The notes below the pieces were generated by a model that made no database searches, had not been told where the DNA came from, and was given only the letters and a program-made list of their open reading frames with translations. Position numbers and translations under genes: made by a program. A stretch of DNA of 64,000 nt from Brevibacillus laterosporus LMG 15441 (GTDB taxonomy: Bacteria > Bacillota > Bacilli > Brevibacillales > Brevibacillaceae): the NCBI RefSeq assembly GCF_000219535.2, contig NZ_CP007806.1, positions 2,700,501-2,764,500 on the forward strand, written 5' to 3'. Of this stretch, positions 2,626 to 33,023 are shown piece by piece. The first letter of the stretch is position 1; each line of letters begins with the position of its first letter.

Positions 2626-2672
2626 GGGGAACAAAAGGAAGAAAAGGGTGGTACCGCCATAAACGATACCAC
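2626..2672 (-). terminator. Hairpin with T-rich tail inside the operon
   Basis: Nine-base arms 2648-2656 and 2664-2672 (GTGGTATCG with CGGTACCAC on the minus strand, one G-U pair, 7-base loop) followed by CCCTTTTCTTCCTTTTG. It sits between the AdoMetDC-like gene and the membrane-protein gene and looks like an attenuating terminator that would reduce expression of the last gene. Confidence 0.6.
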
Positions 2673-2709: not shown

Positions 2710-3084
2710 TTATTCACGGATGATCACTTGGTACTGAACATTTTCAGGCCCAAATACATCAATGATGCTTTGTTTGACTTGCTCTTCAGAAAAGTCTTTG
2801 CAAGAGAAAACATCTAGGTACCCCTCACGATGCAGATCATTGGTGTGAAGAGTGATACTGCTGGTGTAGATCAATTGTACTGCCGAAAGACCGATTTCTT
2901 CACCGTCGCCAAAGCGATAGCAGTGGCACTCCCCGAAGGCAACCATGTCAATGTCTTTAACGAGTTTCATAATGAAATCCTTTACCACTTCAATGCTGAG
3001 AATGTTTTCGTTGCATCTTTCCATGTGAACCAACACATGTTTTCCATAGCAAGCTTTTCCTTCGTGCATGATACGTTTATACAT
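2710..3084 (-). CDS. AdoMetDC-family pyruvoyl decarboxylase-like protein
   Basis: A 124-aa protein with the layout of bacterial class 1B S-adenosylmethionine decarboxylase (SpeH/SpeD). The N-terminal GKHVLVHMERCNENIL (14-29) matches the family strand GxHvlvdlygC. The active-site block keeps Ser75 (the residue that becomes pyruvoyl after self-cleavage), His80 and Cys95 with the same 5- and 15-residue spacings as Ser63/His68/Cys83 of the Thermotoga enzyme. The family hallmark ESH is changed to TSS (74-76), so cleavage would be between Thr74 and Ser75. Known members decarboxylate AdoMet for spermidine synthesis, and divergent homologues are reported to act on arginine or ornithine; which applies here cannot be read. 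The gene follows the last NRPS by 77 bases with a strong AAGGAGATG ribosome site and is clearly in the operon. No aminopropyltransferase gene is nearby, which argues for a dedicated role in peptide tailoring or supply of an amine. Confidence 0.75.
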   Translation of the reverse strand: MYKRIMHEGKACYGKHVLVHMERCNENILSIEVVKDFIMKLVKDIDMVAFGECHCYRFGDGEEIGLSAVQLIYTSSITLHTNDLHREGYLDVFSCKDFSEEQVKQSIIDVFGPENVQYQVIIRE

Positions 3085-3161: not shown

Positions 3162-3545
3162 TTAATTTCTGGCCCTCATGAATCGACCTGTGATGATCTT
3201 TCTGCATTTGCTTGCACCACATCCGCATTCGAATTGGCGGTACAGTTCGTCTTCAGTGGTTTCATAGTCCATGGTTATGTAGTCACCAGGCTTGATTTCT
3301 TTGACAGCAGTGAAAACCTGAGTGTCCATGTCAACCACGGTGTTAGGATCGCACGAGTGAAGTACTTTTCCCATGCAGTATGGGTCTTCCACAAAAAGTC
3401 CCGAATGTTTTTGTAAGGTGTACAGCGTTTGATACGGAAGCTGTGGGCCATCAAAACGGAAGACGATTTCACCCGGTTGAATGATTGTTTTGGAGATCAC
3501 TCCGTCGCCAAATTCTGCTCTATTAATTACCTCTACTCTATCCTT
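3162..3545 (-). other. SET-domain segment at the C-terminus of NRPS subunit 4
   Basis: The last about 125 residues of subunit 4 form a SET domain of the protein-lysine methyltransferase type. Visible elements: the N-terminal AdoMet-binding strand pair FGDGVISKTIIQPGEIVF, the pseudoknot motif HSCDPN (4702-4707, canonical NHSCxPN with the first Asn replaced by Leu), the catalytic-tyrosine motif IKPGDYITMDYETTED with Tyr4733, and a post-SET CxCx4C (Cys4746, 4748, 4753), which with Cys4704 can hold one zinc. Known SET enzymes transfer methyl groups from AdoMet to lysine side chains, and small free-standing bacterial versions exist. Fusion to an NRPS condensation domain is not a standard architecture that I know of. 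None of the readable A-domain codes predicts lysine, so the acceptor is unclear: an amine of the product, an added polyamine, or a protein. Confidence 0.85.
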
Positions 3546-6500
3546 CGTTGGTTCAAAGGGATGGTACGGCACTGTCTCAGGATAGATACGATTTGTGGAT
3601 GGAGGTGAGAGTTCCGGTGCCATCGCTATTGCTACTTCGGAGGTTGCCAGCCTTACTTCATTTTTAACTGCCTGTTTGTCTTTAATGGTAATCCCCACCT
3701 CTGCAAGTTTTGCTTGTGCATTGTTCAAGAGCTCATCAAGTAACGACAAGTAATCCTGTGCCATCTCTTCAATAGTCGACTGTTTGAACAGCTCGACGCT
3801 GTAGCCAAGGGAGAAATGGATAAAATCGTGCTTTTCAATCGCTTCTAAATAGATGTCGTATTCACAAATTTTGAACTCAAATGGATGAGGAACGACGTGA
3901 AGACTGTCGAATTCGATATCGTTCATCTCATAGTTGAGCATGGAGAATACTGCATCAAAGAGCGGTGTACGGTTCTCAACGGTAGGAATCGCTAGTTTTT
4001 CCGTTATCATTTCAAATGGATAGAGCTGGTTCTCATAGCAATGAACGATGTTCTCTTTGACATCGGTGAGGAATTCCTGGAAATTCAAATCCCCTCTTGG
4101 ATTAGCCCGGAAAGCCAGCGTATTGATGAATAAACCAATTACCCTGTTGAATTCTTCACGTGGTCGTCCTGCTTGCCAGGTCCCAACTATGATATCTTCC
4201 TGGTCGGTGTACTTCTGCAAAAGTACGTAGAAAGCGGACAAAAGGGTAATGTAAATTGTGACGCTATGTGCTTCAGAAAATTCATGAAGTAGCTTGGTAC
4301 GTTTGGCATCGACTTGGAAGAAGATTTTTTCTCCATCGAATTTCTTTTGGTCAGGACGCGGGAAGTCAGTTGGGAGTTCCAACTGTGGGATATCTCCATC
4401 AAAATACTTCAGCCAGAACTGCTCTTGTCTTTTCCCCTCTTCGCTAGTTAGCCATTGATCGAGCCAATAGGTATATTCCTTGTATTGGACGGTCAATTCA
4501 GGTAGCTCATGGCCAGCATAAAGCTGCATCAGTTCGTCCATAAAAACGCTAAGCGAAGTTCCGTCGGAAATAATGTGGTTCATGTCAACAAACAATGTGT
4601 GTTTTTCTTCTTCACTACGAATCAAAACGGCACGGAGCAGTGGGGCTTCATGGAAATCAAACGGTCGAACCTGAGCCTGTACCAATTCTGACACCTGTTC
4701 CTCCTCTGCTACCATTACAGGAAGGTCAAAACAAAGCTCGTCATGAACTACGAGTACTACTTCATCATCGACTACATCAAAGGAGCTTCGCAGCGACTCA
4801 TGACGGTTGATCATCGTCTGGAATGAATCGCGTAACCGCTCTACATTCAGCTTACCTTCTAACGTTATCGCGAAAGGAATATTGTAGCTGATCTCCCCTG
4901 CGGCACGCTCGTAAGTGTAACGCTGATACGGAGAGGCTTTATAGTACGGACGTTTTTCCAGTAGCTCAAGCGCGATGTAGGTTCCTGCATCTTGTTTTTT
5001 GATGTACTCCGCTACTTCCCATAGGATTGGAGTCTGGAACAGAACCTTCAGTGGTACCTTCACACCCGTTTCTTTGTGCATCAGGGAGATTAGGGATGCC
5101 GCTTTGAGAGAATGTCCACCTAGCTCAAAGAAATTTCCTTCCCGTCCAACGCGGCTTCTGCCAAGCACTTCGCTCCAAATCATATCCAGCTTCTCTTCCA
5201 GTTCACCCTGCGGCTCCACATAACGGTTAAGAGTGAGTGTGGAGGCATCCGGTTTCGGTAGGGCTTTGCGATCTACTTTGCCATTGACAGTCATCGGGAA
5301 TGTATCGAGTCCGATAAAGTAGGCTGGGATCATGAAGCTGGGCAACGTTTCACCAATGTGTCTTCGCAATTCGCTGATACTAAGCTCGTGGGTTGCAATA
5401 TAGTAGGCGCAAAGTGCAGTGCTGCCAGCATCGTCGATAGCTATCACAAGGGCTTCGTTGATGGCATCATGTTGCAGAAGGCAAGTCTCAATCTCCCCTA
5501 GCTCGATGCGGAAGCCTCGCACTTTTACCTGATGGTCCAGTCGACCCAAATACTCCAGTGTACCGTCATCTAGCCAGCGTGCCAGATCACCTGCACGATA
5601 CATTTTTTGATCAGGTATAAATGGATTAGGTACAAAACGCTCCGCAGTCAAATCAGGTTGATGAAGGTAACCGCGTGCCACACCCTCTCCACCGACGTAT
5701 ATCTCACCTTTTACCCCAATTGGGACAGGTTGCTGGAATTCATCCAAGATGTAAACAGTCAGCGTTGGAATCGGAGTGCCGATGTTTGGCTGATTCTTGT
5801 TCATCTCGGCCAGCGTAATTTCTTTAAACGTTACATGTACAGTGGTCTCGGTAATGCCATACATGTTAATGAGTTGAGTTGCCGGGTATCTTTCATGGAA
5901 CTTGTGAAGCTGGATTGGTGCTAGGGCTTCACCGCCGAAAATCACGTAACGGACAGCCAATTCCTTCTCTTTTCCTTTCGCCTCTTCCTGTATCAGAGAG
6001 TAGAAGGCAGTAGGGGTCTGATTAAGCACGGTCACCCGCTCCTGCTTAAGAAGTTGGATGAAATCCTTCGGCACACGAGCAATCTCTTTTGGTACGATCA
6101 CAACACGGCCACCGTAGAAAAGAGCGCCATACATCTCCCAAACAGAGAAGTCGAAGCAGTAAGAGTGGAACATTGTCCAGACATCGTTGTCGGTAAAATC
6201 AAACCTCATGCGATCATTCGTCATCAAGCGGATCACATTGCGGTGTTCGATCATAACACCTTTAGGCCTACCGGTAGAGCCAGAGGTGAAGATGATGTAT
6301 GCGAGGTCATCTTGTGTTCCAATTGGCTTTGTTAGCAATTTGGCTGGCTGCTTTTCCCACTCATCTAGCTGATCGATATTAATCGGATGGACTTCGGCAA
6401 AAGCCTCATAGATTTCGGCATGATGTGACTCTGTGATGAGCATGTCCATGCCTGTATCCTCAACAATTGCTGCTATACGCTCTACCGGGTATTCCGGATC

Positions 6501-9500
6501 AATTGGCACATAGGCTCCCCCAGCTTTCAAAATAGCCAGAATAGAAATAATCATGCGTTCGGATCGGTCCAAAAGTATTCCGATCAACGGATTACGCTGA
6601 TGCTGACTCTGCTGTAATAGGCGATTAGCAAGACGATTAGCCTGCTCGTCCAATTCCCGGTAGGTAAGGTGTTTGTCGCCGTATGTGACTGCAACACGGT
6701 CTGGTGTTAAACGCACCTGCTTTTCAATCCATGCATGAATGGTAGATTCACGCGGGTAATTCGCATCAGTTTGGTTGAAGTCATAAATCAACTGTTGCTT
6801 CTCAGCTTCGTTTACCATGATGAGTTGTCCCATCGAAAGATCAGGCTGTGTAATTGCACCCATCAGCAATGTGAGAAAATGCTTGGCCATACGTTCCATA
6901 GTAGTACGCTTGTATAGGCTGGTCCGGTACTCCCATTCAAAATAAAGCTTACTGTCTCGCTCCAGCACCGATAATGTCAGGTCGAACTTAGCTGCGTTGT
7001 GCGTATACTCGTACGGAGTCATCTTGAGGCCAGAAATCGTATTATCAGCAAACTCTATGTTCTGCACGGTCAGCATTGTATCAAAGAGCGGATTGCGACT
7101 ACGGTCACGTTGGATGTCGAGTTTTTCGATCAGCTCTTCTAGTGGATACGTCTGGTATTCATAAGCATGTAGCACATTCGCTTTCACTTCACCTAGAAAC
7201 TCACGGAACGATTTAGACATCACAGGGGAGTTTCGTATTGCAAGTGTGTTAACAAACATCCCGATCACATGCTCTACATCTGCTTTGAGGCGCCCTGCTG
7301 TCGGGGTTCCCACAATGATGTCGTCTTGGCCAGTATAGCGAGCAAGGAACAGATTATAAGCCGCCAGTACGTTCATATAAAGAGTGGTATTCGTCTCATG
7401 GACAAACGTGAGTAATTGGGCTGTTTGTTGCTTGTCCAGCTCAAAGCTAATCACGTCACCAGCATAATCAGTAATCGTCGGTCGGCTGTGATCGGTCGGC
7501 ATTTCAAGAACAGGGAGCTCACCTGCAAAGGTATCCAGCCAAAAACGTTCCTCCCTGCCGCTAACCTGACATTGCTCACGTTGCCATACAGCATAATCCT
7601 TGTACTGGATCGTAAGTGATGACAGTTCGTTCCCCAGATATAATTGATTGAGCTCATGCAAAAACAAAGTAAGCGATGTCCCGTCAGAGATAATGTGATG
7701 CATATCTATCAGAAGTACGTGCTGCTTACTAGTCACGCGGAAAATCATAGCGCGGATGAGCGGTGCTTTGCTCAAATCGAATGGTTGAATATAGTCAGAC
7801 AACGTTCTGCGTAGTGTTTCTTCATCTATTTCGACCAACGTCAGCGGGAGGCTCACCTGATCGTGAATCAGTTGGATCACCTCTTCTCCTCTCATTTCAA
7901 AAGAGGTGCGGAATGCCTCATGTCGCTGTATGAGCATATCAAGTGCATTTTGTAGCTTTGATAGATCAAGATCTCCATCTAAACGCACGATCAATGGCAT
8001 ATTATAGCTGATACTTGCTCCCTCAAACTGATTGATGAAATAAAGTCTTCGTTGCGATGGCGATGTCGGATAATACGCTCGCTTCTCTACTGGTTGAATT
8101 GCATGATACGCTTTCCGATCGGATATGCTGATTGCGTTTGCCATCTCTTTGACTGTCTGATGAAGAAAAACCTGCTGAATACTAAACTCTACTTCTAATT
8201 GCTTTTCAATGCTTGCCGAAAGCATCGTGGCACGTAAGGAATGACCACCTCGTTCAAAGAAGTTATCATGGACACCGATTTTTTCTACTCCAAGTACCTC
8301 GGACCAAATCTGGCAAAGTCGTTCTTCGGTCGGGGTGGTAGGTGGTACGTACTGGCTAGCATACAGCTCCAAACTAGGTTCTGGTAGCGCGCGACGGTCT
8401 AGTTTACCATTCGGAGTGAAAGGAATCATCTCAAGCTCCATAAAAACGGCTGGAATCATATACTCTGGCATTCGATTAGAAAGGTGATCCCGCAACTCAG
8501 CAATACCAATTTCAGAATGTGCAGAGAAATAGGCACACAAGTAAGCCTGATTGGTTTGATCATGTTTAACAAGCACAACCGCTTCTTTGACCTGAGGATG
8601 CTCCTTCATCTGTACGGCAATCTCGTCTGGCTCAATACGGAACCCACGGATTTTTACAAGGTTATCAGCACGGTCAAGGTACTCAATATTACCGTCAGGA
8701 AGCCATCTCACAAGATCTCCTGTTTTGTACAAGCGTTCCTCTGGGTTAAACGGACTTGGAATAAACTTCTCATCAGTCAGGTCTTGTCGGTTTAGATACC
8801 CTCGGATCAGTCCTTCTCCGCCAATGTATAGCTCGCCAGGTACACCGATTGGTACAAGATGGAGATGCTTGTTTAACACATATAATTGGGTACGACTGAG
8901 TGGTTTCCCGATCGGTATGGAACTCATGTCCTCCTTGATTTCAAAGATGTGATAATAGGTAGCAAATACAGTACTTTCTGTCGGTCCGTATATGTTGTAA
9001 AAACAGTCCGGACCAAGATAAGCCAGTGCTTTCCTCGCTTGTTTTGGCGACATCTTTTCACCACCGACAAACAACTTACGTACGTTACCTAAGCACTCTA
9101 AATTCACGTCTACTAAAGTGTGAAACAGTGCTGTCGTCATAAATATCACACTAATTCGATGAGTCGTGATTAGATAGGAAAGGGCATGAACATCAAGCAT
9201 TTCATGGCGATTCATCATGACCAGCTTCGCCCCGTTCAAGAGCGCACCATAGATATCGAAGGTAGAACCATCAAATACATAGTTAGAAATTTGCAAAAGC
9301 GTATCTGTACGATTCAAGTCGACATAGTTCGTATCCTTAACGACCCGGATAATGTTCGCATGCGTAGTAAGCGTTCCTTTTGGTTGTCCAGTAGTTCCCG
9401 AAGTAAACATCACGTAGGCGAGATGCTGTGAATGGAGGTCAACTGCTTCGGGATTGCTTACATCACCTTGGTGAAGCAATGTCGGATCATCAAGATTAAT

Positions 9501-12500
9501 CAACTCTTGGTCCAGAGTGAAATTTTTGATCAAATGGGACTGGGACAATACCAGCCGAGTCTTGGTGTCTGCAAGCATAAAGCGAATGCGCTCGATTGGG
9601 TATTCTGGGTCAATTGGTACATAGGCCCCCCCAGCTTTTAGTACCGCTAGCATCGCAACGATCATCATCGGCGATCTGTCGATAATCAAACCAACTTTTT
9701 CTTCTCTTCCTACTCCTCGTGCCTGAAGTGCATGCGCAAGGAGGTTTGCTTGTTCGTTAAGCTGTCGATAGCTCCACTCCTGTTTCTCAAATACCAGCGC
9801 AATCTTATCTGGATACAGCGAGGCCTGCTGTTCGAACAATTGCGGGATGGTAGCTGTGATCGGTGCTTGCCCTTGCTCTGAATTAAACTCTTTTAAAAGC
9901 TGATTCTCCTCCTCTGCCGTCATCATCTGGATGTCTGAGATTGGACTATTCGGATGTTTTAAGGCATGGATGATCAGTTGGTTAAGGTGGTTAGCCATTC
10001 GTTCAATTGTTTCGCGTTTAAATAAGTGACTGCTGTATTCCCAGTTGAAGTATATCTTGCCGTCCGTTTCGATGGCGAGTAACGTCAGATCGAACTTGGC
10101 CTTCTTCATCTCATAAGGAAGGGCAGTAATAGCCACGTCCGTAAGCTGAACAGATGCTAGTTCGAGGTTTTGCAGGGTAAACATTGTATCAAATAGAGGA
10201 TTACGACTCGTGTCACGGGCAAGTCCGAGCTTTTCAATTAGTTCTTCGAGCGGATAATCCTGATGCTCATAGGCTAATAGGACGCTTTCACGTACTTCGG
10301 CAATAAACTGGCGGAAGCTCTTCGCCGCTTCTGGCTGGTTACGCAATGCCAACGTGTTAACGAACATTCCCATCACCCGATCTACGTCGGCAGTTGGACG
10401 TCCCGCAATCGGTGTTCCGACACAAATATCTTCTTGATCAGTATATTTAGCTAGCAACATTTGATATAGCGCAAGTAAGGTCATAAAAAGAGTGACCTGT
10501 TCATTTTGGTTGAACGATTGTAGTTTGGCTGTCCACTCGGCAGGCAGCTCAGTCTGAAGTATCTCTCCAGCAAACTGTTTAACCACAGAACGTGGATAGT
10601 CGGTTTGAAGCTCCAACACCGGAATTTCATCAGCGAACTGATTTAGCCAGTAAGATTCCTTTGTAGCAAATGATTGTAACTGGTTACGTTGCTGCTGCCA
10701 AACGGCATAATCCTTGTACTGAATCTGAAGTTCTGGCAATGTTTCACCAGCATAAAGTTTGCTGAATTCGTCCATAAACAGGCTCATCGAGACACCGTCG
10801 GAAATGATATGGTGCATGTCAATCACAGCCACATAGGACTGTTCATCCAGTTGAATCAGACGAGAACGCATCAGAGGCGCCTGTCCGAGATCAAATGGCT
10901 GAATCGCCTGCTTAATCATCTCATCTCGCTTTGCCTTGCTGGTCTGAATAAGTTCAAAGAGTAGCTTTACTCTTGGATGAATTCGTTGCACCACTTCTCC
11001 ATCCACGACAGCAAAAGAGGTGCGTAGCGCTTCGTGTCGTTCGATCAGTTTTTCAATCACACCTGTAAAGCGCGGGATGTTAAGCGGACCGTTAATTTCC
11101 AGCACAAGTGGCATGTTATAGGCCGTTTCTACACCAGCGAACTGATTGACGACATACATACGTTTTTGTGCAGAAGAAGCAGGGTAATAATCGCTTGTCC
11201 CGACAGGTAGGATCGTTAACTCGTCTGAGCTGTTCTCTTCCTTCTGCTGTTGCAGGATTTGCTCTAGGCAGTCCGCCAGCTCTTGAAGCGTTGGTTTTTG
11301 AAAGAATGCGGAGAGCGGAACCTTCACCCCGAATTCCTTTTGAATGCGAGAGATTACGGTAGTCGCTCTAATCGAGTGTCCCCCACGCTCGAAGAAATGG
11401 TCGTTACGGCCGATACGCTCAACTTGTAAGACGTTACCCCAAATATCCGCCAGTCTCTGCTCCAATTCGCTAATCGGTGGTTCAAAAGGACGATCTGGCA
11501 CATGTACACTGTCTGGTTCCGGTAAGGCACGGCGGTCTACTTTTCCATTTGCGGTAAGCGGCAGACTGTCGAGTTGGATGAAGAACGTTGGAACCATGAA
11601 CGGTGGCAACTGGCTATTCAGGTATTGGCGAAGACCTACATCACTCAGCTCCTCTGTAGCCACGTAATAGGCACAAAGGTTGGTGTCAAAGGCTGTCACA
11701 ACAGCTTCTTTCACCCCGGGATACTGAAGCATTCTGGTCTCAATTTCTCCAAGTTCGATGCGATAGCCTCGGATTTTTACCTGTTGATCAATCCGTCCAA
11801 GGTATTCAAGCTGTCCATCTTGGCTTATCCTTACAAAGTCTCCGGTACGATAAATGGTCTGCTCTGGGAGAAGCGGATGTGAGACGAATTTTTCCGCAGT
11901 CAAGTCCGGTCGATTGAGATAGCCACGCGCAAGTCCTGCTCCGCCAATGCAGAGTTCGCCTGGTACCCCGATTGGTTGTAGCTGTCCGTTTGAGCTGAGC
12001 ACGAGCGCTTGTACATTCTGAATAGGACGTCCTATCGGCAGGTTATTGGATGCCTGAGTCAGCAAAGTAGATGTAGCGACGACGGTGTTTTCAGTTGGTC
12101 CATAGTTGTTGATAAGCTGATATGACCTTGGAATAAAGGTCTTTAGCTTGTCGCCACCAGTCAACAGTACACGCAATGAGCGGTTATCCAGCTCTTGGAA
12201 TAATTCACACATTTGAGTTGGTAAGAAGCTTACGGTAATTCCGTGTACTTCAAAATAGTGATTAAGCAACTCTGCATCGAGACGGATGTCATCAGGAATG
12301 ATGTGCAGAGTGGCACCTGTGATCAGTGTGGGGAAAATTTCCCAAACCGAAGCATCAAAGCCGAAACCTGCATATTTGGTTGTATGATCGGCTGCTGTGA
12401 GATCGAAGGACGTTTGATGCCACAAGCACAGATTAACAAGTGAATGGTGCTCGATCATCACCCCTTTTGGTTGTCCTGTAGAGCCTGAAGTATAGATGAC

Positions 12501-15500
12501 GTAGGCAAGACTATCTGGCTGAACAATCGCATCAAGCGGTTCGTCGGTCACTACTTGATACAGTCTGTCATCTGTAAGCAACAGAGTCTCGCAGATGTCA
12601 GTCCATTCCTCTGATGCTGCAGCTATGTCCCTATTACGGTGAACAAGCAAGATTTTGGCTTTACTATCGGATAGCATGTACTCGATACGTTCTGTTGGAT
12701 ACTCAGGGTCAATTGGCAAAAAGGCTGCTCCCGCCTTAACGATCGCAATCAATCCGATGATCATTTCCAAGGAACGGTCACTGAGAATGGCAACAATATC
12801 TTCCTGTCCCACTCCTTTTGTTCGCAAGGTCTGTGCTAAAAGGCTAGCTTTTTCATCTAATTCACGATAGGTCAGCTGTTGCGCACCAAATACCACGGCA
12901 ATTTGCTCTGGCATCGCAACCGCTACTTGTTCGAATAAGGTCAGTGCAGTGACGTCCTGCGGGATGCTCTTGAATGTGTTGTTTATCTCTGTAAGCAAAT
13001 GTTCTTTTTCAGCATCTGTCATCATGTCAATGTCTCTTAGTTTGATGTTTGGGTCAGCAATCACTTGATTGAGGATACTCAGATAATGCTGAATCATCCG
13101 CTCTATTGTTTCCTGACAAAACAGTTGGGTCCGATATTCCCAGTCAAACACAATTTTGCCTTCACGTTCCGCCGCTACCACTGTCATGTCGAATTTGGCT
13201 ATTTCGTGCGTGAATTCATAGGAACTCATTTCGAGGTTTGCCATCGCAAACGTGGAAACCTCAATGTTCTGTAAGGAGAACATAATGTCAAACAATGGAT
13301 TGCGGCTTATATCACGCTGTACATCCAGCTTTTCAATCAAAGTTTCAAGCGGGTAGTCCTGATTTTCAAACGCTTTGAGGCTATTAGCTTGGACTACACC
13401 TAGGAATTGGTTGAACGTCTCATCAGACTCAAGCTGGTTGCGCATTGCAAGCGTATTAACAAACATTCCCATCACATGTTCTAGTTCAGCTAGCTGACGT
13501 CCGGCAATCGGTGTTCCGATGACAATATCATTTTGGCCCGTGTACTTGTGAAGCAGGACATTTAGTGCGGCTAGCAGGGTCATATACAAGGTACTGCCCC
13601 GTTCGTTGCAATAGGTCAGCAAACGCTCACTTTGACTTTCGGTTAGCTCGAACTGAATGCGCGAGCCAGCGAATTCCTGTACAGTCGGACGCGGGAAGTC
13701 AGTCGCAAGCTCAAGGACAGGAATGTCACCGCTAAAGGTATCGAGCCAATATTTCTCTTTTACCTTTGCCGCACCACTTTCCATGATTGCTTGCTGCCAC
13801 ACGGCATAGTCCTTATATTGAATCGCAAGAGGCGGCAATTCTTTACGGGCGTAGAGTTGCGTCAGCTCATGTAAGAAAATGTTCATGGAAACACCATCAG
13901 AAATGATGTGATGCATATCGAGTACGAGTAAATGCTCTTGCTTGCCAATTTGGAAAAGTCCAACTCGTGACAGTGGAGCCTGACTTAGGTCAAAAGGCTG
14001 AATAAATGTCTGGACCTCTTCTTGCAATAAATCTTCAGTGGTTTCGATATAAGAAAACGGCATTTCTACATCTTTATGAATCTGTTGCATCAGCTTATCT
14101 TCCACGGTGACGAAAGAAGTGCGAAGCGATTCATGGCGCCGGGTCAATGCACGAACAGCATCTTGTAGAGATTCGACATCAAGCAATCCGTTAAGACGTA
14201 CCATCAACGGCATATTATAAGTTAATTCCGCGCCATCGAATTGGATACTCACATACAGACGTTTCTGTGCAGAGGTCGCCGGATAAAAATCGCGGGCTTC
14301 TGTTGGAATAAGCGGCGGTAAGGCATCCTTATCGGCCTGTGTGATGTAAGCCGCCATCTCCTCGATGGTTGGACGGTTAAACACTTCTTTGAGCGGATAC
14401 ACGATACCGAATTGTTTGTGGATTCTAGCAACCAGTAACGTTGCTTTAATTGAATGGCCACCCCGTTCGAAAAAGTTATCAGTAATCCCTACTTGTGTCA
14501 GTCCGAGCACATCGACCCATATTTTTGCTAGTTGTTCCTGCGTTTGATTCTTCGGTGCAACATATTCACTTTCACTAAAAATGTTCTCCGGCATCGGGAG
14601 TGATTTATGATCAACTTTGCCGTTAACAGTAAGTGGTAGGGATTGGAGTTCTATAAAATAAGCTGGCATCATGTAATCTGGTAGCTCTGTTGACATATAA
14701 TCACGCAGTTCGTTGATACTTACTTCATCAGCCGGCACGTAGTACGCACAAAGAACTGCATCGCCAGCGATCTCCTGCACAGTTATGACCGCTTCATTTA
14801 TCGCAGGATGCTTCCGTAGCAAGGTCTCGATTTCCCCAGTCTCGATACGGTGACCGCGTATTTTGACCTGATTATCGATGCGACCGTGAAAAATTAAATT
14901 CCCATCTTCCGTCCAACTCACAATGTCTCCTGTACGGTACATACGCTCATCTGGTTCAAATGGACTTGCTACAAACTTTTCGGCTGTAAGTTCAGGAAGA
15001 TTGTGGTAGCCGCGAGCAAGACCTACACCACTAACACACAGTTCACCAGATATTCCAATAGGCTGAAGCTGATCATGAGCAGTTAACACGTAAGCACGGG
15101 TATTCGCAATCGGACCGCCAATCGTAATCGGCTTATCTACTCGCATGTTGCGAGAAAAGGTAGAAACGATCGCGTTCTCTGTTGGACCGTATTCGTTAAT
15201 TAGTTCGATACGAGCGTTAAGGTTTTTACTCTGACGGATGACGTTCTCTGTCAGTTTATCTGCCCCCAAGCAGATCAAGCGTAACGACTGAGTCTCTTCA
15301 GCAGTCATGGTATCGATGATTGCACTGTACATGACAGGTACGGTAATAAAACTTGTTACGTTCCAGCGCAGGATATGACGTTTAATCGCCACTGGATCTT
15401 TAGCATCCTCAGTCGGTAGAATGACCGCTTTCGCACCGGCGATCAGTGGTGAGAACAAGCTAATGACGAAACCGTCAAATGCGAAGGAAAAGAGCTGCAA

Positions 15501-17462
15501 CACACTGTCTGTCTCACAAAATTGATACTCACGGCTACGCCAATAGATTGTATTAACCACATTTCGGTGTTCAATCATGACCCCTTTTGGTTTACCGGTG
15601 GTGCCAGAAGTGTAGATCATATAAGCCAGATCAGAAGGTCTATTTACCGACTCAAGCGGGCTATTGTCAGTGTCGTCGTTTCCAGTAGTTATCGAAATCA
15701 GTCTATAGGATGAAACATTCTCCCCAAGAGTAGAAGTAATGGTTTTATGCAGATGCTCTTGGATCAAAACCAATTCAATATGGCTATCCGTTAAGATGTA
15801 CTCGATACGCTCTTTGGGATATTCTGGATCGATCGGTACATACGCGCCCCCTGCTTTGAGAATTGCAAAAAGTCCTACAACCATCTCAATGGAGCGTTCA
15901 GCTACAATACCGACTAATTGATTGGGTCCAACACCCTGTCTTCGCAATACACGAGCTAGCTGGTTGGCTTTCTCGTCTAGTTGTTGATAGGTCAGACTCT
16001 GTTCATTGTATGCAATCGCGATGGCATTCGGCGTGCGAGCAACCTGTTCCTCAAACAATTGATGCAACGTTTTCTCGTTCGGAAAGTCTACTGCCGTGCT
16101 GTTAAATGTAGCAAGAAGCTGTTGTTTTTCCTCATCTGTGACTAACTCATAGCTATGGACAGCTTGATGAGGTTCTGCAATGACTTGCTTCATCAGCTTT
16201 GTTAGATGTGCACCTATACGCTCGATAAACGCTTGGTCATACTTGTTTGCATTGTAGCTTAAGCGAATCGTGAATAAATCTCCAGGAATGACAACGAGAT
16301 GAAAGTCATAGTTCGTCATCTCATGGGCATCCACGCTGACTACAGTAAAACCCAGTTCTTTGTCCCATTCAGTCTGATATAGTCCCTGATTATCTACATG
16401 ATTTTGAAAACCTATAATATGATTAAACAGATCGCTTCCAAGTCCAGACCGGGACTGAATATCGGCAAGCGAGACATATTCATAGGATTTAGCTTCCAAG
16501 GAGTTCTGCTTCACCGCATTTAGCAACTGGCTAAATGTCTGCTCATTTCCACTTTTAATTCGTACAGGTACGGTATTGATAAATAGGCCGACAATTTGCT
16601 CCACATCCTCAATTTCTGAGGGACGGCCTGAGACAACCGAACCAAATACGACATCTGAGGTGTTATTGTAACGCTGTAGCAAAAGACCCCAGATCGCTTG
16701 AAATACATTGTTTGACGTGGTCTGATGCTCGCGGGCGATGCGGTAGATTCCCGCGCTTAGTTCTTTATCTACAGGAACGGTTACTTCCCCATAGGCAAAA
16801 CCATCAGAATGTGTAAACTGATGTGCCATAACCGCAGGCTTTTCATAAGCAGAGAGGTAGTTTTCCCAGTAGGTAATGGCCTCAGTCTGATCTTGCTTTT
16901 GCAACCAATGAATATAGCTGCTATAGGGTGTTGTCTTTTCCTTGACTAGGGCCTGATTCATGACTAGCATTTTGTAGAAACGGAAAAAATCCTGCATGAC
17001 AATGCCAAAGCACCAACCATCCATCAAGATATGATGATGACTCCAAACCAATTGATACTCCTTTTCTTTGGTCAAAATGATGCTTATACGCATTAGGATA
17101 TCTTTGGAGAGATCAAAGCCTCTTTCTCGATCAGCTTGGAGTAAAGCCTCGATATGTGCCGTTTGTTCGTCGCAAGAAAGGTTTACAATATTATGAAAGG
17201 CAACAGTGGTCTTGCGTTCTTTTAACACAACTTGGCGTGGTCGCTGTAGCTTTTCGTAAAGAAACAGCGTACGGAAAATATCATATTTGCTGATTAAATG
17301 GTTTAGGCTTTGTTCCACATAACTAACGTTGAGGTCACCTTGAATGATCAGCCTCATCTGTTCAAAGTAAGCATGCTGGGTGTCACCAAGTAAGGAGTGG
17401 AAAAGCATTCCCTCCTGCATGGGTGATAAAGGGTACACCTTTTCGATTTGATTATTTTTCAT
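3162..17462 (-). CDS. NRPS subunit 4: four modules, terminal C domain and SET domain
   Basis: A 4766-aa synthetase: C-A-PCP x4, then C-SET. The first C domain (HHHILMDG about 142-149) is the type that accepts a D-configured donor, as expected after the E domain of subunit 3. Adenylation cores (TSGTTG/TSGSTG) lie near 614, 1652, 2683 and 3721; PCP serines (GGHS) near 1001, 2026, 3070 and 4110. Specificity residues I aligned to GrsA: module 1 DGIICGEIVK (unassigned), module 2 DAWFLGNVVK (Leu), module 3 DGFFFGIVFK (Ile/Val-like), module 4 DFWNIGMVHK (Thr, exact textbook code). No epimerase is present. After the Thr module comes a fifth C domain whose HHxxxDG is NHIISDG (4295-4301), a linker, and a SET domain from about 4640 to the C-terminus. 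There is no thioesterase or reductase, so chain release must use the C domain, the SET part or a separate enzyme. Ribosome site GGGAG lies nine bases before ATG. It is the last synthetase and is followed by the AdoMetDC-like gene. Confidence 0.95.
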   Translation of the reverse strand: MKNNQIEKVYPLSPMQEGMLFHSLLGDTQHAYFEQMRLIIQGDLNVSYVEQSLNHLISKYDIFRTLFLYEKLQRPRQVVLKERKTTVAFHNIVNLSCDEQTAHIEALLQADRERGFDLSKDILMRISIILTKEKEYQLVWSHHHILMDGWCFGIVMQDFFRFYKMLVMNQALVKEKTTPYSSYIHWLQKQDQTEAITYWENYLSAYEKPAVMAHQFTHSDGFAYGEVTVPVDKELSAGIYRIAREHQTTSNNVFQAIWGLLLQRYNNTSDVVFGSVVSGRPSEIEDVEQIVGLFINTVPVRIKSGNEQTFSQLLNAVKQNSLEAKSYEYVSLADIQSRSGLGSDLFNHIIGFQNHVDNQGLYQTEWDKELGFTVVSVDAHEMTNYDFHLVVIPGDLFTIRLSYNANKYDQAFIERIGAHLTKLMKQVIAEPHQAVHSYELVTDEEKQQLLATFNSTAVDFPNEKTLHQLFEEQVARTPNAIAIAYNEQSLTYQQLDEKANQLARVLRRQGVGPNQLVGIVAERSIEMVVGLFAILKAGGAYVPIDPEYPKERIEYILTDSHIELVLIQEHLHKTITSTLGENVSSYRLISITTGNDDTDNSPLESVNRPSDLAYMIYTSGTTGKPKGVMIEHRNVVNTIYWRSREYQFCETDSVLQLFSFAFDGFVISLFSPLIAGAKAVILPTEDAKDPVAIKRHILRWNVTSFITVPVMYSAIIDTMTAEETQSLRLICLGADKLTENVIRQSKNLNARIELINEYGPTENAIVSTFSRNMRVDKPITIGGPIANTRAYVLTAHDQLQPIGISGELCVSGVGLARGYHNLPELTAEKFVASPFEPDERMYRTGDIVSWTEDGNLIFHGRIDNQVKIRGHRIETGEIETLLRKHPAINEAVITVQEIAGDAVLCAYYVPADEVSINELRDYMSTELPDYMMPAYFIELQSLPLTVNGKVDHKSLPMPENIFSESEYVAPKNQTQEQLAKIWVDVLGLTQVGITDNFFERGGHSIKATLLVARIHKQFGIVYPLKEVFNRPTIEEMAAYITQADKDALPPLIPTEARDFYPATSAQKRLYVSIQFDGAELTYNMPLMVRLNGLLDVESLQDAVRALTRRHESLRTSFVTVEDKLMQQIHKDVEMPFSYIETTEDLLQEEVQTFIQPFDLSQAPLSRVGLFQIGKQEHLLVLDMHHIISDGVSMNIFLHELTQLYARKELPPLAIQYKDYAVWQQAIMESGAAKVKEKYWLDTFSGDIPVLELATDFPRPTVQEFAGSRIQFELTESQSERLLTYCNERGSTLYMTLLAALNVLLHKYTGQNDIVIGTPIAGRQLAELEHVMGMFVNTLAMRNQLESDETFNQFLGVVQANSLKAFENQDYPLETLIEKLDVQRDISRNPLFDIMFSLQNIEVSTFAMANLEMSSYEFTHEIAKFDMTVVAAEREGKIVFDWEYRTQLFCQETIERMIQHYLSILNQVIADPNIKLRDIDMMTDAEKEHLLTEINNTFKSIPQDVTALTLFEQVAVAMPEQIAVVFGAQQLTYRELDEKASLLAQTLRTKGVGQEDIVAILSDRSLEMIIGLIAIVKAGAAFLPIDPEYPTERIEYMLSDSKAKILLVHRNRDIAAASEEWTDICETLLLTDDRLYQVVTDEPLDAIVQPDSLAYVIYTSGSTGQPKGVMIEHHSLVNLCLWHQTSFDLTAADHTTKYAGFGFDASVWEIFPTLITGATLHIIPDDIRLDAELLNHYFEVHGITVSFLPTQMCELFQELDNRSLRVLLTGGDKLKTFIPRSYQLINNYGPTENTVVATSTLLTQASNNLPIGRPIQNVQALVLSSNGQLQPIGVPGELCIGGAGLARGYLNRPDLTAEKFVSHPLLPEQTIYRTGDFVRISQDGQLEYLGRIDQQVKIRGYRIELGEIETRMLQYPGVKEAVVTAFDTNLCAYYVATEELSDVGLRQYLNSQLPPFMVPTFFIQLDSLPLTANGKVDRRALPEPDSVHVPDRPFEPPISELEQRLADIWGNVLQVERIGRNDHFFERGGHSIRATTVISRIQKEFGVKVPLSAFFQKPTLQELADCLEQILQQQKEENSSDELTILPVGTSDYYPASSAQKRMYVVNQFAGVETAYNMPLVLEINGPLNIPRFTGVIEKLIERHEALRTSFAVVDGEVVQRIHPRVKLLFELIQTSKAKRDEMIKQAIQPFDLGQAPLMRSRLIQLDEQSYVAVIDMHHIISDGVSMSLFMDEFSKLYAGETLPELQIQYKDYAVWQQQRNQLQSFATKESYWLNQFADEIPVLELQTDYPRSVVKQFAGEILQTELPAEWTAKLQSFNQNEQVTLFMTLLALYQMLLAKYTDQEDICVGTPIAGRPTADVDRVMGMFVNTLALRNQPEAAKSFRQFIAEVRESVLLAYEHQDYPLEELIEKLGLARDTSRNPLFDTMFTLQNLELASVQLTDVAITALPYEMKKAKFDLTLLAIETDGKIYFNWEYSSHLFKRETIERMANHLNQLIIHALKHPNSPISDIQMMTAEEENQLLKEFNSEQGQAPITATIPQLFEQQASLYPDKIALVFEKQEWSYRQLNEQANLLAHALQARGVGREEKVGLIIDRSPMMIVAMLAVLKAGGAYVPIDPEYPIERIRFMLADTKTRLVLSQSHLIKNFTLDQELINLDDPTLLHQGDVSNPEAVDLHSQHLAYVMFTSGTTGQPKGTLTTHANIIRVVKDTNYVDLNRTDTLLQISNYVFDGSTFDIYGALLNGAKLVMMNRHEMLDVHALSYLITTHRISVIFMTTALFHTLVDVNLECLGNVRKLFVGGEKMSPKQARKALAYLGPDCFYNIYGPTESTVFATYYHIFEIKEDMSSIPIGKPLSRTQLYVLNKHLHLVPIGVPGELYIGGEGLIRGYLNRQDLTDEKFIPSPFNPEERLYKTGDLVRWLPDGNIEYLDRADNLVKIRGFRIEPDEIAVQMKEHPQVKEAVVLVKHDQTNQAYLCAYFSAHSEIGIAELRDHLSNRMPEYMIPAVFMELEMIPFTPNGKLDRRALPEPSLELYASQYVPPTTPTEERLCQIWSEVLGVEKIGVHDNFFERGGHSLRATMLSASIEKQLEVEFSIQQVFLHQTVKEMANAISISDRKAYHAIQPVEKRAYYPTSPSQRRLYFINQFEGASISYNMPLIVRLDGDLDLSKLQNALDMLIQRHEAFRTSFEMRGEEVIQLIHDQVSLPLTLVEIDEETLRRTLSDYIQPFDLSKAPLIRAMIFRVTSKQHVLLIDMHHIISDGTSLTLFLHELNQLYLGNELSSLTIQYKDYAVWQREQCQVSGREERFWLDTFAGELPVLEMPTDHSRPTITDYAGDVISFELDKQQTAQLLTFVHETNTTLYMNVLAAYNLFLARYTGQDDIIVGTPTAGRLKADVEHVIGMFVNTLAIRNSPVMSKSFREFLGEVKANVLHAYEYQTYPLEELIEKLDIQRDRSRNPLFDTMLTVQNIEFADNTISGLKMTPYEYTHNAAKFDLTLSVLERDSKLYFEWEYRTSLYKRTTMERMAKHFLTLLMGAITQPDLSMGQLIMVNEAEKQQLIYDFNQTDANYPRESTIHAWIEKQVRLTPDRVAVTYGDKHLTYRELDEQANRLANRLLQQSQHQRNPLIGILLDRSERMIISILAILKAGGAYVPIDPEYPVERIAAIVEDTGMDMLITESHHAEIYEAFAEVHPINIDQLDEWEKQPAKLLTKPIGTQDDLAYIIFTSGSTGRPKGVMIEHRNVIRLMTNDRMRFDFTDNDVWTMFHSYCFDFSVWEMYGALFYGGRVVIVPKEIARVPKDFIQLLKQERVTVLNQTPTAFYSLIQEEAKGKEKELAVRYVIFGGEALAPIQLHKFHERYPATQLINMYGITETTVHVTFKEITLAEMNKNQPNIGTPIPTLTVYILDEFQQPVPIGVKGEIYVGGEGVARGYLHQPDLTAERFVPNPFIPDQKMYRAGDLARWLDDGTLEYLGRLDHQVKVRGFRIELGEIETCLLQHDAINEALVIAIDDAGSTALCAYYIATHELSISELRRHIGETLPSFMIPAYFIGLDTFPMTVNGKVDRKALPKPDASTLTLNRYVEPQGELEEKLDMIWSEVLGRSRVGREGNFFELGGHSLKAASLISLMHKETGVKVPLKVLFQTPILWEVAEYIKKQDAGTYIALELLEKRPYYKASPYQRYTYERAAGEISYNIPFAITLEGKLNVERLRDSFQTMINRHESLRSSFDVVDDEVVLVVHDELCFDLPVMVAEEEQVSELVQAQVRPFDFHEAPLLRAVLIRSEEEKHTLFVDMNHIISDGTSLSVFMDELMQLYAGHELPELTVQYKEYTYWLDQWLTSEEGKRQEQFWLKYFDGDIPQLELPTDFPRPDQKKFDGEKIFFQVDAKRTKLLHEFSEAHSVTIYITLLSAFYVLLQKYTDQEDIIVGTWQAGRPREEFNRVIGLFINTLAFRANPRGDLNFQEFLTDVKENIVHCYENQLYPFEMITEKLAIPTVENRTPLFDAVFSMLNYEMNDIEFDSLHVVPHPFEFKICEYDIYLEAIEKHDFIHFSLGYSVELFKQSTIEEMAQDYLSLLDELLNNAQAKLAEVGITIKDKQAVKNEVRLATSEVAIAMAPELSPPSTNRIYPETVPYHPFEPTKDRVEVINRAEFGDGVISKTIIQPGEIVFRFDGPQLPYQTLYTLQKHSGLFVEDPYCMGKVLHSCDPNTVVDMDTQVFTAVKEIKPGDYITMDYETTEDELYRQFECGCGASKCRKIITGRFMRARN

Positions 17463-17599: not shown

Positions 17600-20500
17600 C
17601 TAGAGATTATTGATAAAGTCAGCAATGTCGTCCAGTTCTTCGAAGGTTAGCTCCTCGTCACCTACGTCACTTGGGGTGATATCAGGGCCTTCTTTTTGCA
17701 AGCAGTGATTGATAATCAAGCGTAAATGGTGCATGTAACGATCTACTAATTTGGCGATTGTGCTGTCTTGATAATGCTTTTGACTATACAAGATTTGAAT
17801 GTGCAGCTGTTTCTCACTTACACTCCCGATCACATCCAACTGATAACTGCGATTGCTATTGGGACTAAACAGTGGACCTTTAGGCATGTCAGAGGGTTGC
17901 AACAGTCCCTCTCCTTTCGCCTGCTCGAATTGCCCCAGATAATTGAAACTAATTTCAGACTTTCTAGTGAGTTGGCAGCCTTCACACTGGTCTGAGCCAG
18001 CGAGATAGGTAAGGATTCCGTACCCAATCCCCTTTTGTGGAACTGATCGTAGGGATTCCTTAGTCGCCTTAATTTGATAAGAGAGATCATGCTCAGAGCT
18101 GATAGTCAGATTGACAGGATACAGGGAAGTAAACCAACCGATCGTTCGACTGATGTTGATTTCTTTAATGATATTTTCACGTCCGTGCCCTTCTAGATCG
18201 ACTAGTATGTTGCTCTCTCCTGTCCACTCGTGAATCGTCCGGGCAAGCGCTGTGAGCAACAAGTCGTTAATCTCTGTATGATAGGCTTGAGTAGCATGCT
18301 TGAGTAGGTTATCTGTCTCTTCACTTGTCAAATGAGCTACTTCACTTTGAAGGTCCTGCCATTTATTCGTTCCATCCATATGATCTTGTGGCAACGGCTG
18401 TATCTGGATTGTTTCGAGCTTTTTCCAATAGTCCCATTCTTTAGCGATCGTTTTACTGTCAGCATACTCCTTCAGAGCCCGTGCCCAATCCTGATACGAA
18501 TGCGTTTTGTCAGGTAGCTGAATCACTTCTCCTCGTTGTACTTGGTCGTAGGCAGTCTGTAAATCTTCTAATAAGATTCGCCAGGATACACCGTCTACGA
18601 CCAAATGGTGGATGGTAAGCAACAGATGATCGCCCCACGCTGTTTGAAATACGGTTGCTTTGAACAGCGGGCCTTGGGTCAAGTCGAGACTCTCTTGGAT
18701 ACGAGTGGCTTCCGCCTCGATTCGTGAAGTCAAAACGGCTGAGTCGTACTCGTTACGTAAGTCGATGATCGCAAGGCTGAATGCTTTCTCGTCTGCTTCT
18801 TTGACCCCTCGATTGATCTGTATGACATGACCGACCGATTCCATGGAATAGATCATTCTCAATGCGTCATGATGACTGATTAATTCTGTCAGGACAGCCC
18901 GAAGAATCTCCACTTCTAAACCAGTTGGAGCATGCAACATCACCGATTGATTCCAGTGATGCTGGTCAGCCATTTGTTGAGCAAAAAACCAGTGTTGGAT
19001 GGGTGTCAGCGGAACCTCTCCCACGATTTCCTCTTGAGTCGCTACACTTTTCATCTGTTTGACATAGAGACTGAGCTCTTCGATGGTCGGATACAGGAAA
19101 ATCTGATTAATGTCTGCCTTCAATTGATATTTGCCCAAACGAGCCACGATCTGGATTGCGTTAATCGAATCACCACCGAGTTCAAAGAAGTTATCCTGAA
19201 TCCCAATACGATCAATCCCTAGTACCTCAGCAAATATCTTTGCTAGCAGCTCTTGCGTTTCGTTGGTTGGAGCGACATATTGTTTCCCGTATTGCTCATC
19301 GGTGCTGGGCAATGGTAAGGCTTTTCGGTCGACTTTACCATTGGTTGTCAAGGGTAGCTTCGGCAAGGTTATGTAGAACGTCGGAATCATATAGTCCGGT
19401 AGGTGTACGGCAAGGTATTTGCGCAGTTCACCATAATCAGGAGCTTCATCTGCGACGATATAAGCACATAGGACTTTTTTGGATTCTAATTCCTTTGGCT
19501 CCACAACAGCCATCTGAATTGTCTCGAAAGCATTCAAACGACTTTCTATCTCCCCAAGCTCGATGCGATAGCCACGAATTTTGACTTGTTGATCTTTACG
19601 GCCGAGAAATTCAAGATTACCGTCTGGGAGCCAGCGGGCGATGTCACCCGTGCGGTACATCCTTTCTCCCTCAACAAATGGATTAGGGGTAAATGCCGTA
19701 TTAGTAAGATCGTCCCGATTGAGATAACCACGTGCCAGACCAGCCCCGGAAATGCATAGCTCACCTGGCACCCCGATTGGTTGAAGCTGTCCATGATGGT
19801 TTATCACATATATGAATACATTATTAGCGGGTTTGCCAATCGGGATATTTGGCAAAGCCTTGGTCACTTCATAGGACGTTGCTAATACCGTGTTTTCTGA
19901 CGGACCATAGTTGTTAATAAATCGGCATGGCTGTGGGATAAAGCGATTCAGCTTGTCACCGCCTGTGTTCAAGATGCGCAGGCTCTGTGTCGGCCATTCC
20001 ATGAATAATTCAAACATTTGGGTCGGTAGATAACTCACCGTAATCTGATGTTGTTGATAGTAGCGGTGCAAACGCTCGATATCATAGCGCACCTCATCAC
20101 TAAGTAGATGAAGAGTGGCCCCTGAAGTTAAGCAAGGGAAAATCTCCCAAATGGTTGCATCGAAACTGAATCCAGCGTATTTGGTCATTCGATCTTGCGA
20201 GGTCAGCTCGTACTTCTCCTTAACTCCACAGCAGAGATTAATGAGTGAACGGTGTTCAATCATCACACCTTTTGGCTGCCCCGTAGAGCCGGAAGTAAAG
20301 ATGACATATGCCAAATTGCTGGAGGTATTGACCGGCTCTAAATCATCAGTCTCACCCTGATACAGGGAAGCATCGGAGAGAGCCAAAATGTCTCCGTCAA
20401 AAGCCAATGGGATTGGTAATTTGGTATGGATTAACAGCCACTTACTACCTGCCTCTTTAAGCATATAGTCCATCCGCTCAACAGGATAATCTGGAGCAAT

Positions 20501-23500
20501 CGGCAGGAATGCACCACCGGCTTTGAGCACTGCGAGTACAGCAATTGCCATTTCCACTGAATGGTCTGCGATGATGGCTACGATGCTTTCCGAACCAACG
20601 CCTTTGGATCGCAGCTTGCGGGCTAATTGATTCGCTTTTTCGTTGAACTGCTGGTAGGTCAATTGTTGCCAATCATCTATGAGTGCAATGTGATTTGGGC
20701 GTTTTTTAGCATGGTATTCGATTAGCTCATGCACCAGTTGATGAACAGGGTAATCCACTTGCGTATCGTTAAAAGTAGTGAGTAATTGTTTTTTCTCCTC
20801 TGGCGTTACCATGTCAATCTGAGCAAGCAATTGATCCGAGTCTAATACCACTGCGCTAATGATTTGAATCAAATGCCCCGCCATACGCTCGATGGTTTCT
20901 TGTTTATACAGAGAGGTACTGTACTCCCAATCAAACATCAGTTTGCCATCCATTTCTGCGACCTGAACTGTCATATCAAACTTCGCTACCTTGTATGGAT
21001 AGGCGTAGTTGTCAATTGTTAAAGCCGGCAGATTTTGATCGGTAAACGTTATATTTTGTACGGCAAATGTCATGTCAAACAATGGATTACGACTAAGGTC
21101 CCGACGCAGGCTAAGCTTGTCTATCAGTTCCTCAAGTGGGTAATCCTGATGCTCATAGGCATTTAGCAGGTTCTCTTTTACTTCACTCAGAAACTCTCGG
21201 AAGCTCTTGTTAGCAGTCGGTTTGTTACGCAGTGCCAAGGTGTTGACGAACATCCCAACCAACGGCTCCAACTCAGCATGTTGACGCCCAGCGATAGGTG
21301 AGCCGACTATAATATCTTCCTGACCGGTATATTTAGAAAGCAACACATTATACGCCGCGATCAGAGTCATAAATAATGTCACCTGATTGTGCTCGCAGAA
21401 ACGGTTAATCATCGCTGTCTGCTTCTCATCCAAGGTAAAGGTGTATCGATCCCCCTTAAACTGTTGAACAGAACCACGCGCATAGTCTGTAGGCATATCA
21501 AGCACTGGTAACTCACCTGAAAAGGTATGAAGCCAAAACTCTTCCTGTCGCGCAGCCTCTCCGCCTTGCATCCGAGTTTGCAGCCAGGCAGCATAATCCT
21601 TGTATTGAATACGCAGCTCTGGTAATTCTTTTCCAAGGTAGAGTTGGTTAAACTCTTCAACCAAAAGCTTCATGGATACACCGTCAGAGATGATATGATG
21701 CATATCCACAACAAGAACAAAGCGTGTGTCGCTAACACGGATGATTAGGCCGCGTACAAGTGGCGCTTGGCTCAAATCAAATGGTTGAATGAATTGTTCG
21801 ATCATCTTATTCAATTCTGCTTCGCTCGCCTTTGGTGCTTCCCTCACCTCGAAGGACACTTCCAAATTTTCATGTACCTGTTGCATGAGAACACCATCTA
21901 CCAATGTAAAAGAGGTTCGTAGCGCTTCATGGCGATCCATCAAGCTTCTCCATACAGAGCATGTACGCTGTATATCGAGAGATCCCTGAATAGAGAGCAT
22001 CAAAGGCATGTTGTAGCTGGTTTCTGCTCCTTCGAACTGTTGGATTACATAGAGGCGTTTCTGCGCAGAAGTGGTACCATAATATTTTTTATGGTCAATT
22101 TTTTCGATTGTTTCATATTCGCACGTGGTAGCATTACGGATAAAATCAGCCATTCCGCGAATCGTCGGACATTGAAACACTGCCTTGAGTGGAAAAGTAA
22201 TTTCTAGCTGCATACTGATGCGTGATGCAAGCATGGTCGCTTTGATTGAATGACCGCCGATACTGAAAAAATTGTCCTTCACTCCAACCCTCGACTGCCC
22301 CAGCACTTCTTCCCATATCTGGACAAGTGCAATCTCCAACTCATCTGACGGTGCGATATATTCGAAGCCCTGTTGGAGTTGTTCGCTAACCTCAGGAAGC
22401 TGGTTGCGATCAACCTTACCGTTTGGTGTAAGTGGGAGTTTTTCCATTCCAACAAAATAGCCTGGAATCATATAGTCAGGTAAGCTTTGGCCAAGTGCCT
22501 GTCGGAGTTCATCTGGCTCAACATCGTTGCCTACGTAATAGGCGACGAGATAGACAAGTCCGCTAGAGTCTTTGCGATCAACCACAATAGCGTCCTGCAC
22601 CTTTGGATGTTGCAACAAAACATGTGTAACCTCGCCGGGCTCAATACGATAACCGCGGATTTTCACCAAATGATCGAGACGTGAAACGTATTCTAGGTTT
22701 CCATCCCAAAGCCACTTAACCACGTCACCAGTACGGTAGATACGCTCACCGGGTAGGAAGGGATGTGGAATGAATTTTTCTTCGGTCAGCTCATCGCGAT
22801 CCAAATAACCTCGTACTAAGCCTCCCCCTCCGATGCACAGCTCTCCTGGAACACCGATTGGCTGGAGATTTTGCTTTTGATCAAGGACAAAAAGTTGAGT
22901 TTGGTTTACTGGTTTGCCGATAGGAATTGTGAATGCATCTGCTGAAACCTGTTCAACCGAATAATATGTCGAATAGACCGTATTTTCCGACGGACCGTAT
23001 AGATGAATAAGTCGGTTCGGACCAAGATATCGCATCGCTTTACGGACGTGGTGAACCGAGACCTTTTCCCCACCAAATAAAATCTTGTGCAACGGAGCTA
23101 AACAGCGTAAGTCTGCGTCCACCACCGCGTTGAATAAAGCCGTTGTCATCAGTGTCATGGTAACGCCATTCTTCGTGATTACCCGGGGCAGTTGAGTCAT
23201 GTCGAGCATCTCTTCACGTTTAATCAGCACCAATCTAGCGCCATTGAGCAATGCTCCATAAATATCAAAGATAGAGCCGTCAAAAATATAGTTCGACAAC
23301 TGCAAAATCCGGTCTTGTTCACGGATATTGACATAATTAGGCTTAACCACAGTCCTTAACACGTTGGCATGAGTAGTCAGATTCCCTTTTGGATTGCCTG
23401 TTGAGCCGGAAGTATATTGAATGAGCGCAAGTGTTTGTCCGTCGCTCTGAGGCGGCAGATTGCTCGCATCACCTTGGTAGAGAGAGCTGTCATCAACAGG

Positions 23501-32923: not shown

Positions 32924-32989
32924 GCTTATACATACACCCCTCATTCCAATAATTGGTAGATTCTTCCATTGGTAGAAAAAGTATCTCCA

Positions 32990-33023
32990 GCACACACAGC
33001 CACAAGACCGTATCTGTGTGCGC
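32990..33023 (-). repeat. Hairpin between NRPS subunits 1 and 2
   Basis: Arms GCACACACAG (32990-32999) and CTGTGTGCGC (33014-33023), nine of ten bases paired plus one G-U, 14-base loop, in the 140-base gap between the first two synthetase genes. No T-run follows on the minus strand, so it may act in mRNA processing or stability. Confidence 0.45.

Follow-up and report, generated by a model that had tools for sequence, protein, structure and literature searches.

SET-domain proteins are known mainly as protein-lysine methyltransferases, but BurB, a SET-domain protein of the DMSP/malleicyprol pathway of B. thailandensis, methylates free methionine with SAM to S-methylmethionine (PMC12542666; PMC7496086) and does not act on two related thioethers that were tested (PMC12542666). 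BurB is a stand-alone protein of 172 aa which leads to DMSP as a starter unit and works together with a decarboxylase, BurI. BurI is PLP-dependent. The second related system is the SpeD family of pyruvoyl decarboxylases, in which the substrate range has evolved from AdoMet decarboxylase (AdoMetDC) to new substrates in SpeDC and SpeDA. In the published comparison a fully conserved proline marks AdoMet decarboxylases, and Gln, Thr, Phe and Tyr mark the SpeDC ornithine decarboxylases (PMC10407285). Third, in glidonin biosynthesis the terminal C domain C13 has been shown to release the chain with free putrescine, and the second His of its HHxxxDG motif matters; in this assembly line A*, T and TE follow C13 (PMC10587159). 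Finally, bleomycin A2 is a peptide ending in a 3-aminopropyl-dimethylsulfonium amide, made on a different assembly line; no C-SET fusion is known to us.

We analyzed a window of 64,000 nt from Brevibacillus laterosporus LMG 15441 (GCF_000219535.2, contig NZ_CP007806.1, positions 2,700,501 to 2,764,500), whose positions are used throughout. On the minus strand four NRPS genes are followed by a small decarboxylase-like gene, and the last NRPS gene ends C-A-T(Thr)-C-SET in one frame without a thioesterase. The following features were identified:

33064..44769, minus strand: NRPS gene A, with an FAAL-type acyl ligase start, a KR-like region and two modules (Pro-code; Leu-code + E)
25274..32995, minus strand: NRPS gene B (Pro-code; Leu-code + E)
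17600..25255, minus strand: NRPS gene C (Ile/Val-like code; uncertain code + E)
3162..17462, minus strand: NRPS gene D, with four C-A-T modules (uncertain, Leu, Ile/Val-like, Thr), then a terminal C domain, then the SET domain
5030..5225, minus strand (limits approximate): last carrier (T) domain with GGHS motif, donor of the finished chain
3738..5030, minus strand (limits approximate): terminal condensation domain, LCL-like, with NHIISDG motif; no A or T domain after it
3183..3587, minus strand: BurB-like SET domain, proposed methionine S-methyltransferase; the reading frame ends at 3162
2710..3084, minus strand: SpeD-like pyruvoyl decarboxylase gene, proposed S-methylmethionine decarboxylase
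2648..2672, minus strand: terminator-like hairpin after the SpeD-like gene (11 pairs, T-rich tail), possible operon end

The FAAL-type and KR-like parts of gene A were named by reading the N-terminal sequence and not from a family search. The ten A domains carry codes that we read as Pro, Leu, Pro, Leu, Ile/Val, uncertain, uncertain, Leu, Ile/Val and Thr, the third of them read by hand from the sequence, and E-type motifs end the first three genes. The evidence for the hairpin is weak, as two such matches were found in the region while 1.8 were expected from shuffled sequences. Directly after this terminator-like site, at 1530-2597 on the minus strand, lies a 355-aa protein with hydrophobic segments and no Pfam or NCBIfam match, which could be unrelated or a self-protection gene. 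A search against Rfam gave nothing of use.

The original prediction had described a SET domain fused to an extra C domain after the Thr module, with the protein ending there without a thioesterase, and this observation is confirmed. Gene D is one uninterrupted ORF of 4766 aa. A Pfam scan found 5 Condensation, 4 AMP-binding and 4 PP-binding stretches and a C-terminal SET match, and listed no thioesterase family. In the whole protein the SET match is below the family cut-off (20.1 against 22.4 bits, E 8.7e-4), whereas the last 172 aa scanned alone pass it (27.9 bits, E 3.3e-6). The HSCDPN motif, the DY tyrosine and the post-SET CxCx4C are present. The last A domain has the code DFWNIGMVHK, the Thr code. 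One small correction concerns the terminal C domain, which does not stop within 3162-4700 but runs to about 5030. It is full length, is 39% identical to the C domain of the preceding module and keeps the second His of its motif, although the first His is Asn.

To evaluate the nature of the SET domain we compared it with solved structures by sequence and by predicted fold. In a sequence search of the PDB the best hit was BurB (E 4.9e-21), while the next, a histone methyltransferase with a lysine SET, reached only 2.5e-7. The AlphaFold2 model, built from a 40-row alignment (mean pLDDT 90.4), best matches BurB with bound S-methylmethionine and SAM at an rmsd of 1.7 A and TM 0.76/0.81, compared to TMq 0.59 or less for the lysine SETs among the 50 rows listed, so that the fold is not a chance match. 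The HSCxPN, DY and TED-x-L...F-x-C-x-C-x4-C signature is shared with BurB, and the equivalents of its His93, Tyr124 and Arg133 are kept (H108, Y139 and R148 of the 172-aa fragment). However, several side chains of BurB that touch SAM are not kept: His138 is Gly, Arg42 aligns with Phe and His72 with Tyr, and Ser88 near the active site aligns with Met. The S88A variant of BurB retains over 60% activity (PMC12542666) and position 138 varies among the relatives, so these changes do not exclude the function. We also built a tree of 48 SET rows, consisting of 40 BurB-like rows picked from more than 80 and 8 of 20 generic bacterial loci; BurB itself was not included. The eight generic SETs fall outside the 40 BurB-like rows (92/98), and the window SET falls in a supported group of 14 (100/99), 11 of which are linked to a SpeD-like gene. 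The other three (loci found in the searches described below are numbered with the prefix L) are L020 and L024, where the 2.5 and 1.3 kb before the SET show no SpeD-like match, and L023, where only 0.2 kb lies before it. L009, from a virus contig, is SpeD-linked but lies outside this group.

Next, we investigated which genes accompany BurB-like SET domains. A first scan of the genome collection with a single sequence led nowhere, but a scan with a four-row SET alignment found 136 relatives, of which the best 80 were kept. Of these 80 loci, 12 have a SpeD-like gene directly beside the SET and 27 an ornithine/DAP/arginine-type PLP decarboxylase, 26 of the latter within 200 bases or fused and one 5 kb away. 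In 41 loci neither was detected as far as four tblastn queries can tell; 32 of these are Pseudomonas or Pandoraea, and Pfam scans of a few of their neighbours showed no amino-acid decarboxylase either. Among them, the 390-aa ORF just before the SET in L055 has no Pfam match, and L042 has a Cys/Met-metabolism PLP enzyme right behind it. In two loci (L025:7735-9450 and L031:4287-5999) the PLP decarboxylase is fused to the BurB-like SET domain, which probably combines S-methylmethionine synthesis and decarboxylation in one protein. The SET and SpeD-like pair was observed in Paenibacillus, Alicyclobacillus, spirochaetes, a Rhizobium plasmid and an IMG/VR virus contig. For a test in the other direction we searched 247 genomes of the phylum of G404, the genome of a spirochaete locus, with the SpeD-like protein alone. 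This matched 59 genomes in two separate groups, with 11 places at 114-122 bits and the rest at 56 bits or less. All 10 of the 11 upper places whose loci were retrieved have the BurB-like SET adjacent, although six of the ten repeat earlier genomes or have identical SpeD-like sequences. Of 20 lower loci retrieved, 17 have no SET, and the other three (L129, L133 and L135) carry a generic SET domain fused to an ornithine-decarboxylase-like SpeDC domain (313-318 aa) next to a canonical SpeD gene.

The C-SET fusion itself was found nowhere else. In 84 BurB-like loci outside this genome (the best 80 of 136, plus L006-L009) the SET lies in open frames of 573 aa or less, so none is an NRPS fusion, and none was found in 4 genomes that hold the pair. 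Among 199 relatives one other genome matched, with a 175-aa frame; among 398 genomes of the class six others matched, one of them strongly (178.8 bits, 224-aa frame); and among 39 genomes of the order 13 others matched at 20-25 bits in frames of 202-274 aa.

The partner gene encodes 124 aa, starts 77 bases behind the NRPS gene and belongs to the AdoMet_dc family. Unlike SpeD, SpeDC and SpeDA, it is linked to a SET gene instead of polyamine genes. Its model (mean pLDDT 93.0) has the fold of T. maritima AdoMetDC (rmsd 1.6 A). All 25 SET-linked rows, several of them from the same or near-identical genomes, keep the equivalents of the self-processing and catalytic residues Ser63, which becomes the pyruvoyl group, His68 and Cys83, and read H[TS]ND where the canonical rows read HT[WYF]P; one wrongly extracted row (L098) was left out. 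The conserved proline is Asp in 25 of 25 rows, and the window protein scores below the TIGR03330 cut-off (39.8 against 75.65 bits). The genome has a separate and far better AdoMetDC elsewhere (124.9 against 58.6 bits), and we therefore rejected a true AdoMet decarboxylase. Of the four ornithine decarboxylase markers the window protein has Gln, Thr and Tyr, but the Phe is Thr or Ser in all 25 SET-linked rows and Phe in 19 of 20 ODC-like rows, the exception being the odd row L145. Which Pro and which Phe are meant in the published comparison is our inference from residue order. In an unrooted tree without L105, L118 and L145, the AdoMetDC rows and the ODC-like rows each form one side of a branch (100/100). 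The SET-linked rows lie outside both, between them, and the ODC-like clade branches from among them; long branches call for caution here.

Taken together, our findings suggest that the end of this NRPS is a release unit that makes and uses its own amine. In this view, the SET domain transfers a methyl group from SAM to free methionine, giving S-methylmethionine; the SpeD-like protein cleaves itself to form a pyruvoyl cofactor and decarboxylates S-methylmethionine to 3-(dimethylsulfonio)propylamine; and the terminal C domain takes the peptidyl-Thr thioester from the last carrier domain and, as there is no downstream carrier, couples it to this free amine. This would release a linear lipopeptide with a permanently cationic dimethylsulfoniopropyl amide at its C-terminus, so that no thioesterase would be needed. 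While architecture, homology, predicted fold, conserved residues and gene linkage are established by our analysis, the three activities in these proteins, including acceptance of a free amine by the C domain, and the product are inferred. S-methylmethionine has its positive charge about where ornithine has it, and we infer that an ornithine-like pocket is a plausible relative; the SET partner would supply exactly this substrate. We hold it very likely that the SET domain is a methionine S-methyltransferase and likely that its partner is an S-methylmethionine decarboxylase, whereas the whole scheme is only somewhat more likely than not. Several observations weigh against it: the SAM contacts noted above are changed, about half of the SET loci show neither decarboxylase, the SpeD-like protein has three of the four ODC markers and its next relatives are ODC-like, BurB is a tetramer in solution (PMC12542666), which is awkward for a domain of a megasynthase, and the fusion is a single case. 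The acceptor specificity of the C domain cannot be read from sequence, and mapping of the glidonin acceptor residues gave no reliable assignment. The original interpretation is partly supported: the C-SET pair does look like a new off-loading unit, but methylation of a released amine, a carrier or a partner protein is not supported, and the SET domain more likely makes the precursor of the releasing amine.

The individual parts are of known kinds, as is amine release by a C domain; what appears new is their combination and, probably, a new substrate for the SpeD family. Searches of openly licensed papers showed neither this fusion nor a pyruvoyl S-methylmethionine decarboxylase: nothing was found on SET and condensation domains with sulfonium peptides, on dimethylsulfonium lipopeptides, on amine release by a terminal C domain with a decarboxylase, or on a C domain adding the sulfonium amine of bleomycin. 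A looser search on the terminal amine of bleomycin A2 returned the glidonin paper, S-methylmethionine decarboxylase returned papers on plants, and its combination with SET domains and DMSP returned only the BurB paper. It is slightly more probable than not that we see a new class of NRPS release unit that builds a sulfonium amine and caps the peptide with it, and that the SET-linked SpeD-like family, observed in Bacillota, Spirochaetota, Pseudomonadota and a virus contig, is a third neofunctionalised branch of the SpeD family, namely pyruvoyl S-methylmethionine decarboxylases. If true, this predicts a permanently charged lipopeptide that pH cannot neutralise, a new way to end peptide assembly lines and a route to 3-(dimethylsulfonio)propylamine that needs no PLP. 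It would also assign a function to a small decarboxylase family that is easily mistaken for AdoMet or ornithine decarboxylase, and show a domain of the histone-methylase fold built into a peptide synthetase to make a small-molecule building block.

Alternatively, the SpeD-like gene could encode an ornithine or arginine decarboxylase, so that the C domain releases the chain with putrescine or agmatine and the SET domain does something unrelated or methylates that amine. The descent of SpeDC from SpeD (PMC10407285), the three shared markers, the ODC-like next relatives and the known release with putrescine speak for this. However, we regard it as unlikely because the presumed diagnostic Phe is lacking, the ODC-like rows form one well-supported clade that holds no SET-linked row, and the linked SETs are BurB-like while those fused to an ODC-like domain are generic. 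Equally unlikely, the SET and SpeD-like proteins could make a free sulfonium compound (amine or DMSP, osmolyte-like) for the cell, with the fusion only co-locating them and the terminal C domain cyclising or hydrolysing the chain on its own. In Paenibacillus, Alicyclobacillus and spirochaetes the pair is indeed a two-gene unit with a stand-alone SET, and in one genome that holds the pair (G402) the NRPS matches lie on another contig. Here, however, the SET is physically part of the synthetase and the SpeD-like gene follows directly. Moreover, we observed no aminotransferase or aldehyde dehydrogenase, and thus no genes completing DMSP, among the window ORFs scanned outside the NRPS genes or among 9 downstream ORFs scanned (of 16 ORFs of at least 110 aa in an 18.5-kb stretch whose last 2.5 kb overlap the window). 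The pathway therefore seems to stop at the amine, and DMSP as end product was rejected, although trans-acting genes are not excluded; no thioesterase was found among these 9 ORFs either. Methylation of the released amine, the carrier or a partner protein is very unlikely: the catalytic-type Tyr and the usual role of SET domains would fit, but the domain is closest to BurB by sequence and fold, lies apart from the generic SETs in the tree, and belongs to a group linked to decarboxylases. A degenerate or chimeric tail without function, as the single example, the Asn in the C motif and the lost BurB contacts might suggest, is likewise very unlikely given the open frame, the invariant SET columns kept, the confident model and the conserved partner gene next door.

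Related arrangements were also observed in other contexts. In Eleftheria terrae (L007:6894-30369) a PKS/NRPS cluster is annotated with SET, dioxygenase, aminotransferase and aldehyde dehydrogenase, as for a DMSP starter, and in Aquabacterium (L060) a related SET has the PLP decarboxylase located 5 kb away. The SET and SpeD-like pair occurs in the same arrangement on a phage-like plasmid with helicase, ribonucleotide reductase, RuvC and ParB genes (Rhizobium bangladeshense plasmid p7, L006:10952-14018) and on the IMG/VR contig (L009:1518-4913). In both a 363-aa ORF follows, with no PHROGs match in either and no Pfam match for the plasmid one, and on the plasmid an Asn-synthase-like gene precedes. 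These pairs could serve a phage nucleic-acid or other modification with a sulfonium amine.
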